Shown here: positions 49,585 to 56,114 of the stretch, piece after piece | Numbering within the stretch: the stretch's first letter is position 1 | How the letters are laid out: each line of letters begins with the position of its first letter | NCBI GenBank assembly: GCA_905235445.1 | Contig: CAJOLJ010000002.1 | Span: 102,911-166,910, forward strand | Direction: 5' to 3' | DNA length: 64,000 nt | Origin: an uncultured Bacteroidales bacterium | GTDB lineage: Bacteria; Bacteroidota; Bacteroidia; Bacteroidales; UBA932 | Program-made: the position numbers and the translations under genes | Notes under the pieces: generated by a model | Database searches by the model: none | Seen by the model: only the letters and a program-made list of their open reading frames with translations | Told to the model about the DNA's origin: nothing

Positions 49585-50799
49585 CTACAGCAGTCCCATG
49601 TCTTTTGCCATAGAGATGAGTTCGGCCGTATTGGACACGTCGAATTTTGCAATTATCTTCTTCCGGTACCACCTGATGGTCTCGTTGCTAAGCCCTAGGG
49701 CCCGGGCTATGTCAGGGGCGGTATAGCCCTTGGACAGGAGGTCCAGAATCTCTCTCTCCCGTGAGGAAAGTTGTATGTCGCAAGGAGTGGTGGGCTTTAT
49801 CTCCCGGATAGTCTCTTCCATAACGGCAGCCGTTTCGGCTTGTTCCTTGCGGGTTCGCCTTAGCATGCGGGACAGGATCAGCACCGCCACTGACATTAGG
49901 AGCAGCACAGTGAGGGTGGCTATCATCCAGGACAGCATCCTACGCTGCTGTCCCAGTACGATGGACATGTATTCATAGTTCTCCTTCGTGAATTCAAGTT
50001 CCTCCTTGCCGTGGGCGGAATAGTACTCGTCGGCGGCTTGTAGATATCTGAGTGCCCTGCTGGTTTTCCCCTGTTCCATGTACATGCGTCCCAGACCCTT
50101 TCGGGCATTCGCCGTAAGGAGGGAATCTCCTGCGGCAAGGGCATAATCCTCGGACTTGCGGTACGCTTCCCTGGCCTTCTTCATGTCTCCCTCTGAAACG
50201 TACGTCTCACCGATGTTATAGAACAGGATGGAATTGCTCTCGTTCCAACCGTACTTGTCGAAAATCGCACTAGCCTTGGAATAATAGTCCATCGCCCTGG
50301 GAATGGAGTCCATCAGGTTGTAGACATTCCCGATGGATCCGTACAGGACTGAGAGTTGGTCATCTATCTGCAGTTGGGAGTAACCCTGCGGACTGGTTGG
50401 GGAAACCGCTCCACCGGCCATCTGCTCCACGCACTCCATCGACAGACGATAATAGACCAGGGCACTGTCAAAACTCTCCCTGGCATAGAAATGCTGGCCA
50501 ATGTAACGGTATGCATCCGCATTTGCGAAAACCCAATTCTTCCTTCTGCTTATCTCCAGTGCCTGCCTGGCGTAGAACATGCTCTTTTCCGGATTGAGAA
50601 CGCTGTAACCCAGCATAAGGTCACGATAGGCCAAGTTCAGTCCCATCAATTCCTCATCGGAAGCATTGTCTATTGCGTCTGGAGTCCACTTGGCCACTGC
50701 CCTCTCGAGGGAATCAACGTTATGACCCCTATGGTCATTGTATCCAAGGGCAGCGACCTCGACACCGAGTATGAAAATAAGTAGAAGTGTTTTTCTCAT
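49585..50799 (-). CDS. membrane-anchored TPR/LuxR-type regulator
   Basis: 404 residues. A signal peptide (MRKTLLLIFILGVEVAAL) precedes a periplasmic region of TPR-like helix pairs (AYRYIGQHFYARESFDSALVYYRLSMECVEQM; FYNIGETYVSEGDMKKAREAYRKSEDYALAAG). A membrane helix follows (SWMIATLTVLLLMSVAVLILSRML), then a coiled linker and a cytoplasmic LuxR HTH (LSSREREILDLLSKGYTAPDIARALGLSNETIRWYRKKIIAKFDVSNTAELISMAKDMGLL). The layout is of a one-component membrane sensor whose periplasmic TPR part senses a protein or peptide. It is divergent from the solo HTH gene at 50915. Confidence 0.9.
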   Translation of the reverse strand: MRKTLLLIFILGVEVAALGYNDHRGHNVDSLERAVAKWTPDAIDNASDEELMGLNLAYRDLMLGYSVLNPEKSMFYARQALEISRRKNWVFANADAYRYIGQHFYARESFDSALVYYRLSMECVEQMAGGAVSPTSPQGYSQLQIDDQLSVLYGSIGNVYNLMDSIPRAMDYYSKASAIFDKYGWNESNSILFYNIGETYVSEGDMKKAREAYRKSEDYALAAGDSLLTANARKGLGRMYMEQGKTSRALRYLQAADEYYSAHGKEELEFTKENYEYMSIVLGQQRRMLSWMIATLTVLLLMSVAVLILSRMLRRTRKEQAETAAVMEETIREIKPTTPCDIQLSSREREILDLLSKGYTAPDIARALGLSNETIRWYRKKIIAKFDVSNTAELISMAKDMGLL

Positions 50800-50860: not shown

Positions 50861-50905
50861 ACCACCCTTAAGGGGTGTTTCACCACCCTTTTGCGTGGTG
50901 TTTTT
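50861..50905 (+). promoter_or_regulatory. direct repeats and hairpin upstream of the solo HTH gene
   Basis: ACCACCCTT occurs at 50861-50869 and 50882-50890, 21 bp (two DNA turns) apart. The second copy is part of CACCAC/GTGGTG (50881-50886 with 50895-50900) followed by TTTTT, which could be a terminator/attenuator just before the start codon. It could also be an operator for the neighbouring LuxR-type proteins. Confidence 0.4.
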
Positions 50906-50914
50906 CAGTTCGGA

Positions 50915-51142
50915 ATGAGCGAAATTTGCAAAACCAATGATTATGAAATGACCACTTTGACACCGCAGGAATTAAGCATCGTCCGTCTCATTGCCCAGGG
51001 GGCGAAGACTCCCGATATCGCAAAAGAGATGGACCTGAAGCCGGAGACCGTAAAATGGTATAGGAAAAGGATACTGGATAAATTCCAGGCATCCACTTCC
51101 GCTGAAGTGGTACGCAAGGCTATCGAACAAAAAATTCTTTAA
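50915..51142 (+). CDS. solo LuxR-type HTH protein
   Basis: 75 residues from the ATG at 50915, or 64 from 50948. It is little more than an HTH domain (LTPQELSIVRLIAQGAKTPDIAKEMDLKPETVKWYRKRILDKFQASTSAEVVRKAIEQKIL), closely similar to the C-terminus of the divergent membrane regulator and to the broken HTH at 47.7 kb. With no sensor domain it may compete for the same operators or heterodimerise with the larger protein. The OmpA-domain gene begins 12 bp later on the same strand and may be its target or operon partner. Confidence 0.85.
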   Translation: MSEICKTNDYEMTTLTPQELSIVRLIAQGAKTPDIAKEMDLKPETVKWYRKRILDKFQASTSAEVVRKAIEQKIL

Positions 51143-53821: not shown

Positions 53822-54241
53822 CTAGAAGAGTTTCAGATCCCCCGTCACCTTGTCTATCTCGGCACTGTTCCAAGGTCCGATTCCAAGGCATGTCACCGTC
53901 CTGTGTCCATGGAACTCAGTGAGGCCGGAGTCAACTATGAGAGCGCAGGGTATACCCGCTTCCTGGCACTTGGCCTCCAAAGAGAGAAGTTCCTCCTCAG
54001 AGTCGACACGTAGGCAGATCTTCGTGAAGACACCCCCCAGCCACTGTCCAAGGACACTGTCCTCCTGGAAAGATACGCTGTAGGACGTAATGCCCCCACC
54101 CTCCTCTACGGAGGGAGTTTTCGTTATGTCGAAGAAACGAAGCAAGGCCCCCATCGAGGCATGGGCACCCTGGGCTATCATCTTTCCCTTTCTCATGCCC
54201 AGGTCGCTTCGCATGACTATCACCTGTTTTACCTGTTCCAT
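53822..54241 (-). CDS. pth2: peptidyl-tRNA hydrolase, Pth2 (archaeal/eukaryotic type)
   Basis: 139 residues. KQVIVMRSDLGMRKGKMIAQGAHASMGALL at the N-terminus and FTKICLRVDSEEELLSLEAKCQEAGIPCALIVDSGLTEFHG, then TVTCLGIGPWNSAEIDKVTGDLKL, are the Pth2 signature, with the catalytic Lys/His residues of the QAAHA-like loop. Pth2 frees tRNA from peptidyl-tRNA. Bacteria normally use the unrelated Pth1; whether this genome also has it is unknown. It is the third gene of a minus-strand operon after two metallophosphoesterases. Confidence 0.93.
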   Translation of the reverse strand: MEQVKQVIVMRSDLGMRKGKMIAQGAHASMGALLRFFDITKTPSVEEGGGITSYSVSFQEDSVLGQWLGGVFTKICLRVDSEEELLSLEAKCQEAGIPCALIVDSGLTEFHGHRTVTCLGIGPWNSAEIDKVTGDLKLF

Positions 54242-54274
54242 GATTGATTGTTGAGAGTCTATAGAATGTGGTGA

Positions 54275-55333
54275 TTACTTGAGAAGTGATATGGCCTTTT
54301 CGATGTCCTCCTTCCTCAGTCCCACCCCGGAATCAGTCTTGACGGCCCTGAAGTCATCCACATCGAAAGGAGTGAACGTGACGTAGCGATGGCTTCCTCC
54401 CCCGCTGGAAGAGAGGAAAGTCCCTATGGCCTCCTTGACCCCCATGGACGGAAGAGTGCAACCAATGACGGGAAGTCCCGACAGGATGGGCATGGCCCTG
54501 GCTTCCTCCAAGGACAGGGGGCAGCCAAGAAGGACTATGCGGGCCCCGGTCCTTTCGCAGAAGGACCCCAGCATCTCTTTAGCCCCGACAAACCTCTCTC
54601 CTCCATAATGACAGAGCACCCCCTCAATACTTAGGAACGCAAGCGCTCCCTCTCCGATGCCTTCCCCGGAAGAGGAGTCACCCCGGGCCCCTCTGACCTG
54701 TTCTTCTATCTTTGCCTTCAGTTCATAAAAAGAAATCGGGGCATAGTCATTATTGTCCACTCCCACGTCATACTGCAGGGGGAAAAGCATCTTGAGCCTT
54801 GGGTGGTCCAGCCCCGTCTTTGACAGGGGACCGCTGTGGACATGGCCGTAAAGCTGCCAGGTATCCCTGTACGCCCCTCCGTAGCAGAGGAAGGGATAGT
54901 GATTGAGGTATATTGCCTGAGAGCCTATCTTTATTGACATCTGCTGAGCCACACCCCCGAACCTGGCCATTACGCTTTGACGAAGGAACTTGAGGTCATG
55001 GTTGCCCACTATGAGGATAATCTTTCCGGTGAGGCGGTCCAGTATGCTTGTCCACTGGGCGCCCCCTCCGCTACCGAAATCCCCCAGATGGAAAACCACC
55101 CCGCCGGAGGGGACCTTCTCCCTCCAGCGGCGGATAAGTTCCTCGTTCATGTCCTCGGCATCCCTGAAAGGGCGGCCACAGAACTTTATTATGTTTTGGT
55201 GGTGGAAATGAGTGTCCGACGTGAAGAACACTTTCCCGGGGTCGAAGCCTGACGCCAGGGAATATGTTTCATACCTGGAAGTCAGAGTAAATTCTTCCAT
55301 ATCATCAATATCTTGGTCTTTAGTTGTTTTCAT
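54275..55333 (-). CDS. metallophosphoesterase fused to a degenerate HAD-like domain
   Basis: 352 residues. The first 200 residues form a calcineurin-like phosphoesterase: VFFTSDTHFHHQNIIKF, VVFHLGDFG, IILIVGNHD, NHYPFL and YGHVHSG give the two-metal site. The C-terminus (about 230-352) has the order of a HAD-superfamily domain as in Swiss-Army-Knife RNA repair proteins (LAFLSIEGVL, TGARIVLLG, LPVIGCTLP, DFRAVKTDSGVGLRKEDIEKAISLL), but the expected DxD nucleophile is missing (LSIEG). Its start overlaps the end of the upstream phosphoesterase gene by 14 bp; pth2 follows after 33 bp. Confidence 0.82.
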   Translation of the reverse strand: MKTTKDQDIDDMEEFTLTSRYETYSLASGFDPGKVFFTSDTHFHHQNIIKFCGRPFRDAEDMNEELIRRWREKVPSGGVVFHLGDFGSGGGAQWTSILDRLTGKIILIVGNHDLKFLRQSVMARFGGVAQQMSIKIGSQAIYLNHYPFLCYGGAYRDTWQLYGHVHSGPLSKTGLDHPRLKMLFPLQYDVGVDNNDYAPISFYELKAKIEEQVRGARGDSSSGEGIGEGALAFLSIEGVLCHYGGERFVGAKEMLGSFCERTGARIVLLGCPLSLEEARAMPILSGLPVIGCTLPSMGVKEAIGTFLSSSGGGSHRYVTFTPFDVDDFRAVKTDSGVGLRKEDIEKAISLLK

Positions 55334-56114
55334 GACAATCATCGTCCCACATGACCTTCAGTTCCATTATGTCCAACATGCTGAATGCGGTGTCCTGGAT
55401 GACAGAGTACCAGCTGCTGTGGAAATGTCCGTAGAACCATTTGCCCAGCGGGTGCCCGTCATCCTTCAGGGTACGGAACAGACGGTCCATCACTTCCCTT
55501 TCCCTCCTGCAGTCCTCAATCAAAGTGCTGTCATACATCGCCCACTCCTGAAGTCCCACGTGGGAATCCTTCTCGCAGAAGGACGGGGCCGTGTGAGTCA
55601 CCACCGAATCCACTTCGTACTTATCCTTGATGGCGGCAAGTGCATCGGCATCGTAGCAGGGGGCCTCGTCCGGCCAGTACAGGGGCCGGTGGGACTTCTT
55701 CATCTCATTCTTGCGGTAGTTCCTGTCTATGCTGGTAGCTCCTCCCACGAGCAGTATGGTATGGCCGCATGAGCGCACTATGGTGTAGTCCGGCACTGTC
55801 CTGAACCTCCCGTGGGACATCTTACTTTCCCTGAAATAACTCGGGTCATCATGGTTGCCCCTCAACATGACAATCCAGTTGTTCGCCGCAGACAGGCGCC
55901 TGGCCACTTTCCTATAAATGATATCCTCATAATAGGCCTGCTTTCCGAAACCGAAGCCGCAGTCACCTGCCACTATGACCAGGGTGTCCTTCATCCCGTA
56001 CTGGATGCAGACCTTGTGCACCAGGGAGATAAAGGAGCCGTGTATGTCTCCGCAAACGACCACCTGGCGGGCCGAAGGGTAAGTGAGTGCCTCCATCATA
56101 TCAGTGTGTTTCAA
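55320..56114 (-). CDS. calcineurin-like metallophosphoesterase
   Basis: 264 residues with no signal peptide. The metal motifs are VVVCGDIHGSF, VIVAGDCGFGFG, MLRGNHDDP, THTAP and YGHFHSS, in canonical order. The enzyme is a cytoplasmic phosphodi- or monoesterase of unknown substrate. It is the first gene of a three-gene operon, overlapping the next phosphoesterase gene, with Pth2 last. A well-formed promoter precedes it. Confidence 0.92.
   Translation of the reverse strand: MKHTDMMEALTYPSARQVVVCGDIHGSFISLVHKVCIQYGMKDTLVIVAGDCGFGFGKQAYYEDIIYRKVARRLSAANNWIVMLRGNHDDPSYFRESKMSHGRFRTVPDYTIVRSCGHTILLVGGATSIDRNYRKNEMKKSHRPLYWPDEAPCYDADALAAIKDKYEVDSVVTHTAPSFCEKDSHVGLQEWAMYDSTLIEDCRREREVMDRLFRTLKDDGHPLGKWFYGHFHSSWYSVIQDTAFSMLDIMELKVMWDDDCHENN

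Follow-up and report, generated by a model that had tools for sequence, protein, structure and literature searches.

The minus strand of the window, by which we mean the whole 64,000-nucleotide stretch of Bacteroidales DNA analysed here, carries a unit of three genes running head to tail from position 56114 to position 53822. The first encodes a metallophosphoesterase of ~259-264 residues (MPE-A; 55320..56114), the second a further metallophosphoesterase to which a HAD-like tail is joined (MPE-B; 54275..55342; 355 residues, or 352 if translation begins at the ATG at 55333), and the third Pth2, a peptidyl-tRNA hydrolase of the archaeal/phage type with 139 residues (53822..54241). The place, strand and close packing of the genes are as a first-pass annotation of this DNA had described them, including the 33-bp gap that separates MPE-B from Pth2. 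The 14-bp overlap of MPE-A and MPE-B that it reported holds for the ATG at 55333, evidently the start it had used, and grows to 23 bp from the first ATG of MPE-B. MPE-A is listed from a TTG at 56114; its homologues begin at an in-frame ATG at about 56099 (alignment A3), which by this comparison is likely to be the true start. The promoter consensus of Bacteroidales differs from that of sigma70. One good promoter had been placed ahead of the operon, and for this there is a slight indication in seven sigma70-like sites where 1.8 were expected, the consensus searched not being the one that Bacteroidales use.

The operon is set among ordinary bacterial genes, with an OmpA-like gene and a DUF2807 gene on one side and a gene for a dihydroorotate-dehydrogenase/ferredoxin protein on the other. 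In GC content it matches its surroundings and gives no compositional signal of an island, so that a recent transfer is not visible. As to island markers, the locus holds no tRNA gene and no Rfam match, and a nucleotide search returned no plasmid relatives. Comparison within the genus yielded no clean empty site because the flanking dihydroorotate dehydrogenase gene (65-71% identical) has different neighbours in the relatives. Elsewhere in the window, a small stand-alone LuxR-type HTH ORF (50891-51142) lies divergent to a TPR-LuxR regulator (49585-50799) and resembles the C-terminal HTH of that regulator, perhaps as a duplicated DNA-binding domain.

Pth2 is supernumerary, and its closest relative found is a phage protein

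Pth2 is a clear member of PF01981 and a predicted peptidyl-tRNA hydrolase. It matches the full domain (1-115/115) at 117.5 bits, over the curated cut-off, and passes TIGR00283 (105 bits, cut-off 82), while scoring 110 bits for NF003314, below the cut-off of 126. The core residues K20, Q24, H27, D104, G106 and T108 are invariant across six Pth2 proteins, so that the window protein retains what phage Pth2 conserves. The presence of Pth1, a point on which the first-pass annotation had asked for a check, is confirmed: the normal bacterial type is encoded in the same genome, and Pth2 is therefore an extra rather than a housekeeping enzyme.

The closest Pth2 that we found is encoded on a 177-kb phage contig (L094) and is 63-64% identical. 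The Pth2 tree was poorly resolved, having too few columns, and gave the window sequence no settled place; the case for a phage origin thus rests on this best identity and on distribution. Pth2 is common in large phages, and was found in one of 200 genomes of the same family (MPE-B relatives in 12, MPE-A in 5), in 2/393 genomes of the order, one of them a weak match, and in 1/297 Bacteroidota genomes, this one being the window's own. The MPE-A, MPE-B and Pth2 families each occur in phages. From this distribution we infer that transfer ran from phage to bacterium.

Two intact phosphoesterases and a degenerate HAD domain

Both phosphoesterases exceed the Pfam cut-off for PF00149 Metallophos, MPE-A with 41.2 bits and MPE-B with 29.4 bits. 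In MPE-A, assigned to PHROG 1649 (metallo-phosphoesterase), the catalytic residues of the DxH, GD, GNH, H and GHxH motifs are all invariant in alignment A3. The catalytic domain of MPE-B (residues 1-222; 54677..55342) belongs to PHROG 547 (phosphoesterase, 160 bits), and its metal-binding motifs D43xH45, GD88, GNH115, H148 and GH167xH169 are invariant across 15 diverse homologues (alignment A4). Its nearest solved relative, 1xm7, is a protein of unknown function. Judged by their motifs, which are complete, MPE-A and MPE-B are calcineurin-like phosphoesterases of a predicted active type.

The remainder of MPE-B (residues 223-355; 54275..54676) had been noted as a HAD-like tail resembling the HAD domain of Swiss-Army-Knife RNA repair proteins, and the profile check bears this out. 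The window tail itself gave no Pfam match, even at E-values up to 5, and PF18143 had no match in the window's own genome. Three full-length homologues of MPE-B with its tail, at 45-49% identity, were found, one in a Bacteroidia MAG (L015) and two within the family (L004, L005); the tail of the L015 protein, which is 48% identical over its full length, passes PF18143 HAD_SAK_2 with 35.1 bits against a cut-off of 27.5. When aligned by hhalign with nine canonical HAD_SAK_2 proteins, the tail family scored 99.1% and the single window tail 93.3%. An AlphaFold model of the tail (pLDDT 89.6, pTM 0.85) recovered phage HAD phosphatases in Foldseek with probability 1.00, the best of them at TM scores of 0.70-0.76, as well as solved HAD phosphatases at TM ~0.55-0.62. 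A match of the tail in L013, an aspartyl-protease protein, was rejected as chance.

The tail is also, as had been proposed, without its DxD nucleophile: the canonical FLDxDGVL reads FLSIEGVL in the window, SIE replacing DxD, and the SS of motif II and the DD of motif IV are likewise gone. With all of these residues absent, it is predicted not to be an active HAD_SAK phosphatase. The DxD position reads DVS in L004 and L005, and since even the tail of L015, which retains DVD, has lost the residues of motifs II and IV, the entire fused clade seems, on these sequences, to be catalytically dead in its HAD domain. Homologue, profile comparison and structural model together identify the tail as a real HAD_SAK_2 domain minus its catalytic motifs; it is homologous to PF18143 proteins by profile and fold but differs from them in having lost those motifs and in sitting behind a phosphoesterase of predicted active type.

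The L015 locus holds a restriction endonuclease domain, a NERD nuclease, CpsB/CapC and two MPE-B genes. The second MPE-B is followed by a separate, 5'-truncated HAD_SAK_2 ORF (32.9 bits), and a canonical HAD_SAK_2 gene (84.9 bits) is also present, giving three such domains at this locus: one fused, one truncated and one canonical.

A degenerate tail, a sporadic distribution and the occurrence of broken MPE-B homologues (L014, L030) would all suit decaying phage cargo, kept by chance and without present function. Set against this, the catalytic sites of both phosphoesterases and the core of Pth2 are intact, and none of the three closely spaced reading frames is interrupted; we regard such decay as highly improbable.

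MPE-B recurs beside Pth2 and HAD_SAK_2 in phages

The arrangement of the operon was found elsewhere in parts. The exact trio of MPE-A, MPE-B and Pth2 was searched for in other genomes and not found, so that the conservation of the neighbourhood outside this genome, on which the earlier proposal had been made to depend, holds for pairs, several large phages combining MPE-B with Pth2 and two loci combining MPE-A with MPE-B. In one of the latter (L029) the MPE-A relative directly precedes MPE-B with a 4-bp overlap and a further phosphoesterase, MPE-D, follows; in the other, a 373-kb phage (L044), the two lie 3.7 kb apart with HD-PNK between them. We also observed that MPE-B is often paired with, or upstream of, a third family, MPE-C ('MKIQYxSDLHLEF'; L016, L012, L017, L003), and MPE-MPE pairs are thus recurrent.

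The phage contig that encodes the closest Pth2 has the gene order HAD_SAK_2 (111.5 bits), deoxyribosyltransferase, ORF, NUDIX, MPE-B, Pth2, in which Pth2 overlaps the 3' end of the MPE-B gene and the canonical HAD_SAK_2 lies 2.3 kb away. A second record (L203) has the order Pth2, small ORF, MPE-B, HAD_SAK_2, the last two genes overlapping, and is in effect an unfused version of the MPE-B-HAD protein of the window. MPE-B is also found beside Pth2 in L136 and L181. Eighteen of the 50 phage records that hold Pth2 also hold MPE-B. The two genes are separated by at most 400 bp in four of these 18, independent of one another, where uniform placement predicts 0.20 (p ~6e-5), and by at most 16 kb in 11, where it predicts 3.6; uniform placement is a generous null, since phages tend to group genes of similar function anyway. 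The four exclude L289, in which Pth2 is very divergent and on the opposite strand, and two of them (L094 and L203) have a canonical HAD_SAK_2 close by. The pairing of MPE-B with Pth2 in phages is beyond chance.

RNA-repair genes around MPE-B

RNA-end enzymes recur beside MPE-B. A T4 Rnl2-type RNA ligase gene adjoins it in two bacterial genomes, at 66 bp in L024 and at ~1 kb in L080/G151, and these are the strong cases of the ligase association. PNK-HAD lies 3 bp from MPE-B in L051 and within 5 kb in six clusters in all, and other neighbours are PNK3P (L050), HD-PNK (L044) and KptA (L022). The KptA case, from a Bacteroidales MAG (L022:4980-8406), is a single run of genes for MPE-B, a PP2C phosphatase, an unknown protein and KptA, an RNA 2'-phosphotransferase. 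An RNA-repair or Pth2 gene was found within 5 kb in 24/109 MPE-B clusters, or in 20/105 once the window and the clusters fetched through Pth2 were left out, and most MPE-B genes are accordingly without such a link. Across phage records the closeness of RNA ligase to MPE-B was not significant (Fisher p 0.18), and we therefore make use only of individual adjacencies.

The window's own genome encodes, on another contig and outside the operon (G000:C19, ~25.4-27.3 kb; L079:7393-9315), a 640-residue protein in which a metallophosphoesterase is fused to a T4 Rnl2-type RNA ligase (PF00149 + PF09414 + PF18043). MPE-D, a frequent neighbour of MPE-B (13/109 clusters), is homologous to the phosphoesterase half of this fusion (29% over 263 residues, E 5e-33). 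In Pnkp, a phosphatase of the metallophosphoesterase type acts on RNA ends together with an Rnl ligase. The RNA ligase, PNK-HAD, PNK3P and KptA neighbours, together with the MPE-Rnl2 fusion, strengthen the suggestion made at first pass that the operon could process or repair RNA ends or stalled tRNAs.

Alternatively, the phosphoesterases may serve nucleotide house-cleaning or signal degradation, hydrolysing free nucleotides or second messengers such as NAD derivatives, cyclic oligonucleotides or modified dNTPs, with Pth2 linked to them only because enzymes of this sort accumulate together in the variable regions of phage genomes. The nucleoside 2-deoxyribosyltransferase and NUDIX genes between HAD_SAK_2 and MPE-B in L094, the CpsB/CapC-like and deoxyribosyltransferase-like genes of L015 and the PP2C gene that adjoins MPE-B in L022 are consistent with this, as is the prediction, in the excerpted text of PMC7824862, that calcineurin-like phosphodiesterases are counter-nucleotide enzymes of jumbo phages. 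Such a role leaves unexplained, however, both the tight pairing of MPE-B with Pth2 and the fusion or adjacency of MPE-B to HAD_SAK_2, Rnl2, PNK-HAD and KptA, all of them RNA-end enzymes, and we consider it rather unlikely.

MPE-A relatives in type IV toxin-antitoxin loci

Genes for an AbiEi-like protein, an AbiEii toxin and MPE-A form a tight three-gene unit in two genomes from this family (L032:1-2256 and L033:1492-3744), where the phosphoesterase thus joins a type IV toxin-antitoxin system as its third gene. These MPE-A homologues are 53-54% identical to that of the window, and their genes overlap the toxin gene. The likeness to the window is confined to this family member, the window being without AbiE genes. 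MenT is a nucleotidyltransferase toxin family related to AbiEii, and its members extend tRNA acceptor ends, according to the excerpted texts of PMC10435456 and PMC11541572; because MenT acts there, MPE-A may work at the tRNA 3' end.

These relatives raise the prospect of a resident defence or counter-toxin module whose three proteins would undo what AbiEii/MenT-type nucleotidyltransferases, or tRNA-acetylating or tRNA-pyrophosphorylating toxins, do to the tRNA acceptor end, Pth2 removing blocked aminoacyl groups and the two phosphoesterases removing added nucleotides or phosphates. Besides the AbiEii overlap and the activity of MenT, a toxin that acetylates tRNA is on record together with its detoxifying enzyme (PMC9241777). 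Nevertheless, the association with AbiE is limited to MPE-A, no toxin gene lies within or near the operon, and PADLOC gave no meaningful match for MPE-A, MPE-B or Pth2, and one weak match, of MPE-B to PDC-S10 (14.7 bits, E 0.0033). A counter-toxin module of this kind is, in our view, distinctly unlikely.

It is possible to go further and to envisage a bacterial operon dedicated to detoxification of the tRNA acceptor end, which would make it an antidote module of phage origin and of a hitherto undescribed kind, although we hold this, too, to be unlikely. Pth2 would strip peptidyl or acetyl-aminoacyl groups, and the two phosphoesterases, with the inactive HAD domain as their guide, would remove nucleotides or phosphates added to the tRNA 3' end by abortive-infection toxins (AbiE/MenT, toxSAS).

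Discussion

We favor, as the somewhat more probable reading, that the operon is a phage-derived cassette for RNA-end processing and tRNA or ribosome rescue that now resides in a Bacteroidales chromosome. MPE-B, as an active metallophosphoesterase, would most likely act on RNA, probably tRNA, that toxins or abortive-infection nucleases have cut or modified, and trim 2',3'-cyclic or 3'-phosphates from its ends. The HAD_SAK tail of MPE-B, no longer catalytic, probably serves RNA binding or assembly. Pth2 would clear dead-ended peptidyl-tRNA of its peptide or of an acetylated amino acid, after which the tRNA could pass to repair or recycling, and MPE-A would be a second phosphoesterase with a related purpose. 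Sealing could be performed in trans by the MPE-Rnl2 fusion on contig C19. We infer these substrates, and likewise the cooperation of the three proteins with one another and with the ligase.

The statement at first pass that no such system was known goes too far: roles in RNA repair and ribosome rescue have already been predicted in jumbo phages for PTH2, SAK-HAD and calcineurin-like phosphatases (Iyer et al. 2021, PMC7824862). In the excerpted text of that work, PTH2 is proposed to free cleaved, ribosome-bound tRNAs of their peptides, while the removal of terminal phosphates is assigned to SAK-HAD and the calcineurin-like phosphatase. The parts (PTH2, Swiss-army-knife HAD, calcineurin-like phosphatase, RNA ligase, PNK and KptA) and the proposed purpose of counteracting tRNA cleavage are the same as those considered here; of this set, we find MPE-B and Pth2 co-located above chance in phages, and an RNA ligase in the genome, outside the operon. 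The excerpted text gives the parts by presence and domain architecture, and does not describe an MPE-PTH2 operon, an MPE-HAD_SAK fusion or a bacterial chromosomal copy. Measured against it, the functional theme is an existing prediction, and the fusion of MPE with HAD, the conserved pairing of MPE with Pth2 and residence in a chromosome are new.

A proven analogue of the coupling of repair to rescue is provided by RtcB2-PrfH, a sporadic two-gene operon that likewise combines an RNA-repair enzyme, the RtcB2 ligase, with a translation-rescue factor, a release-factor homologue, and that acts against rRNA cleavage by colicin E3 (PMC9223846). The two operons are unrelated in sequence, that of the window consisting of phosphoesterases and Pth2 with the ligase absent. 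The window differs also from the bacterial Pnkp-Rnl-Hen1 repair complexes (PMC4411300) in having neither kinase nor Hen1 and in the placement of its ligase-MPE fusion on another contig.

Our findings give testable form to a prediction drawn from a list of parts, that phage Pth2 and RNA-end phosphatases undo tRNA cleavage, by supplying a unit with a conserved gene pair at its core. The pseudo-HAD domain of the fused protein should reveal how RNA is held, and the chromosomal copy could be deleted and challenged. The operon may also provide a functional address for PHROG 547, a very widespread and uncharacterised family of phage phosphoesterases: relatives of MPE-B are present in 1,384 of 50,697 GenBank phage records. 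An interruption of ~1.0-1.1 kb splits MPE-B in several phages (L056:4974-6596, L058:4974-6595 and L059:4983-6571), and because it holds a homing-endonuclease-like ORF, it suggests a mobile intron within the gene.
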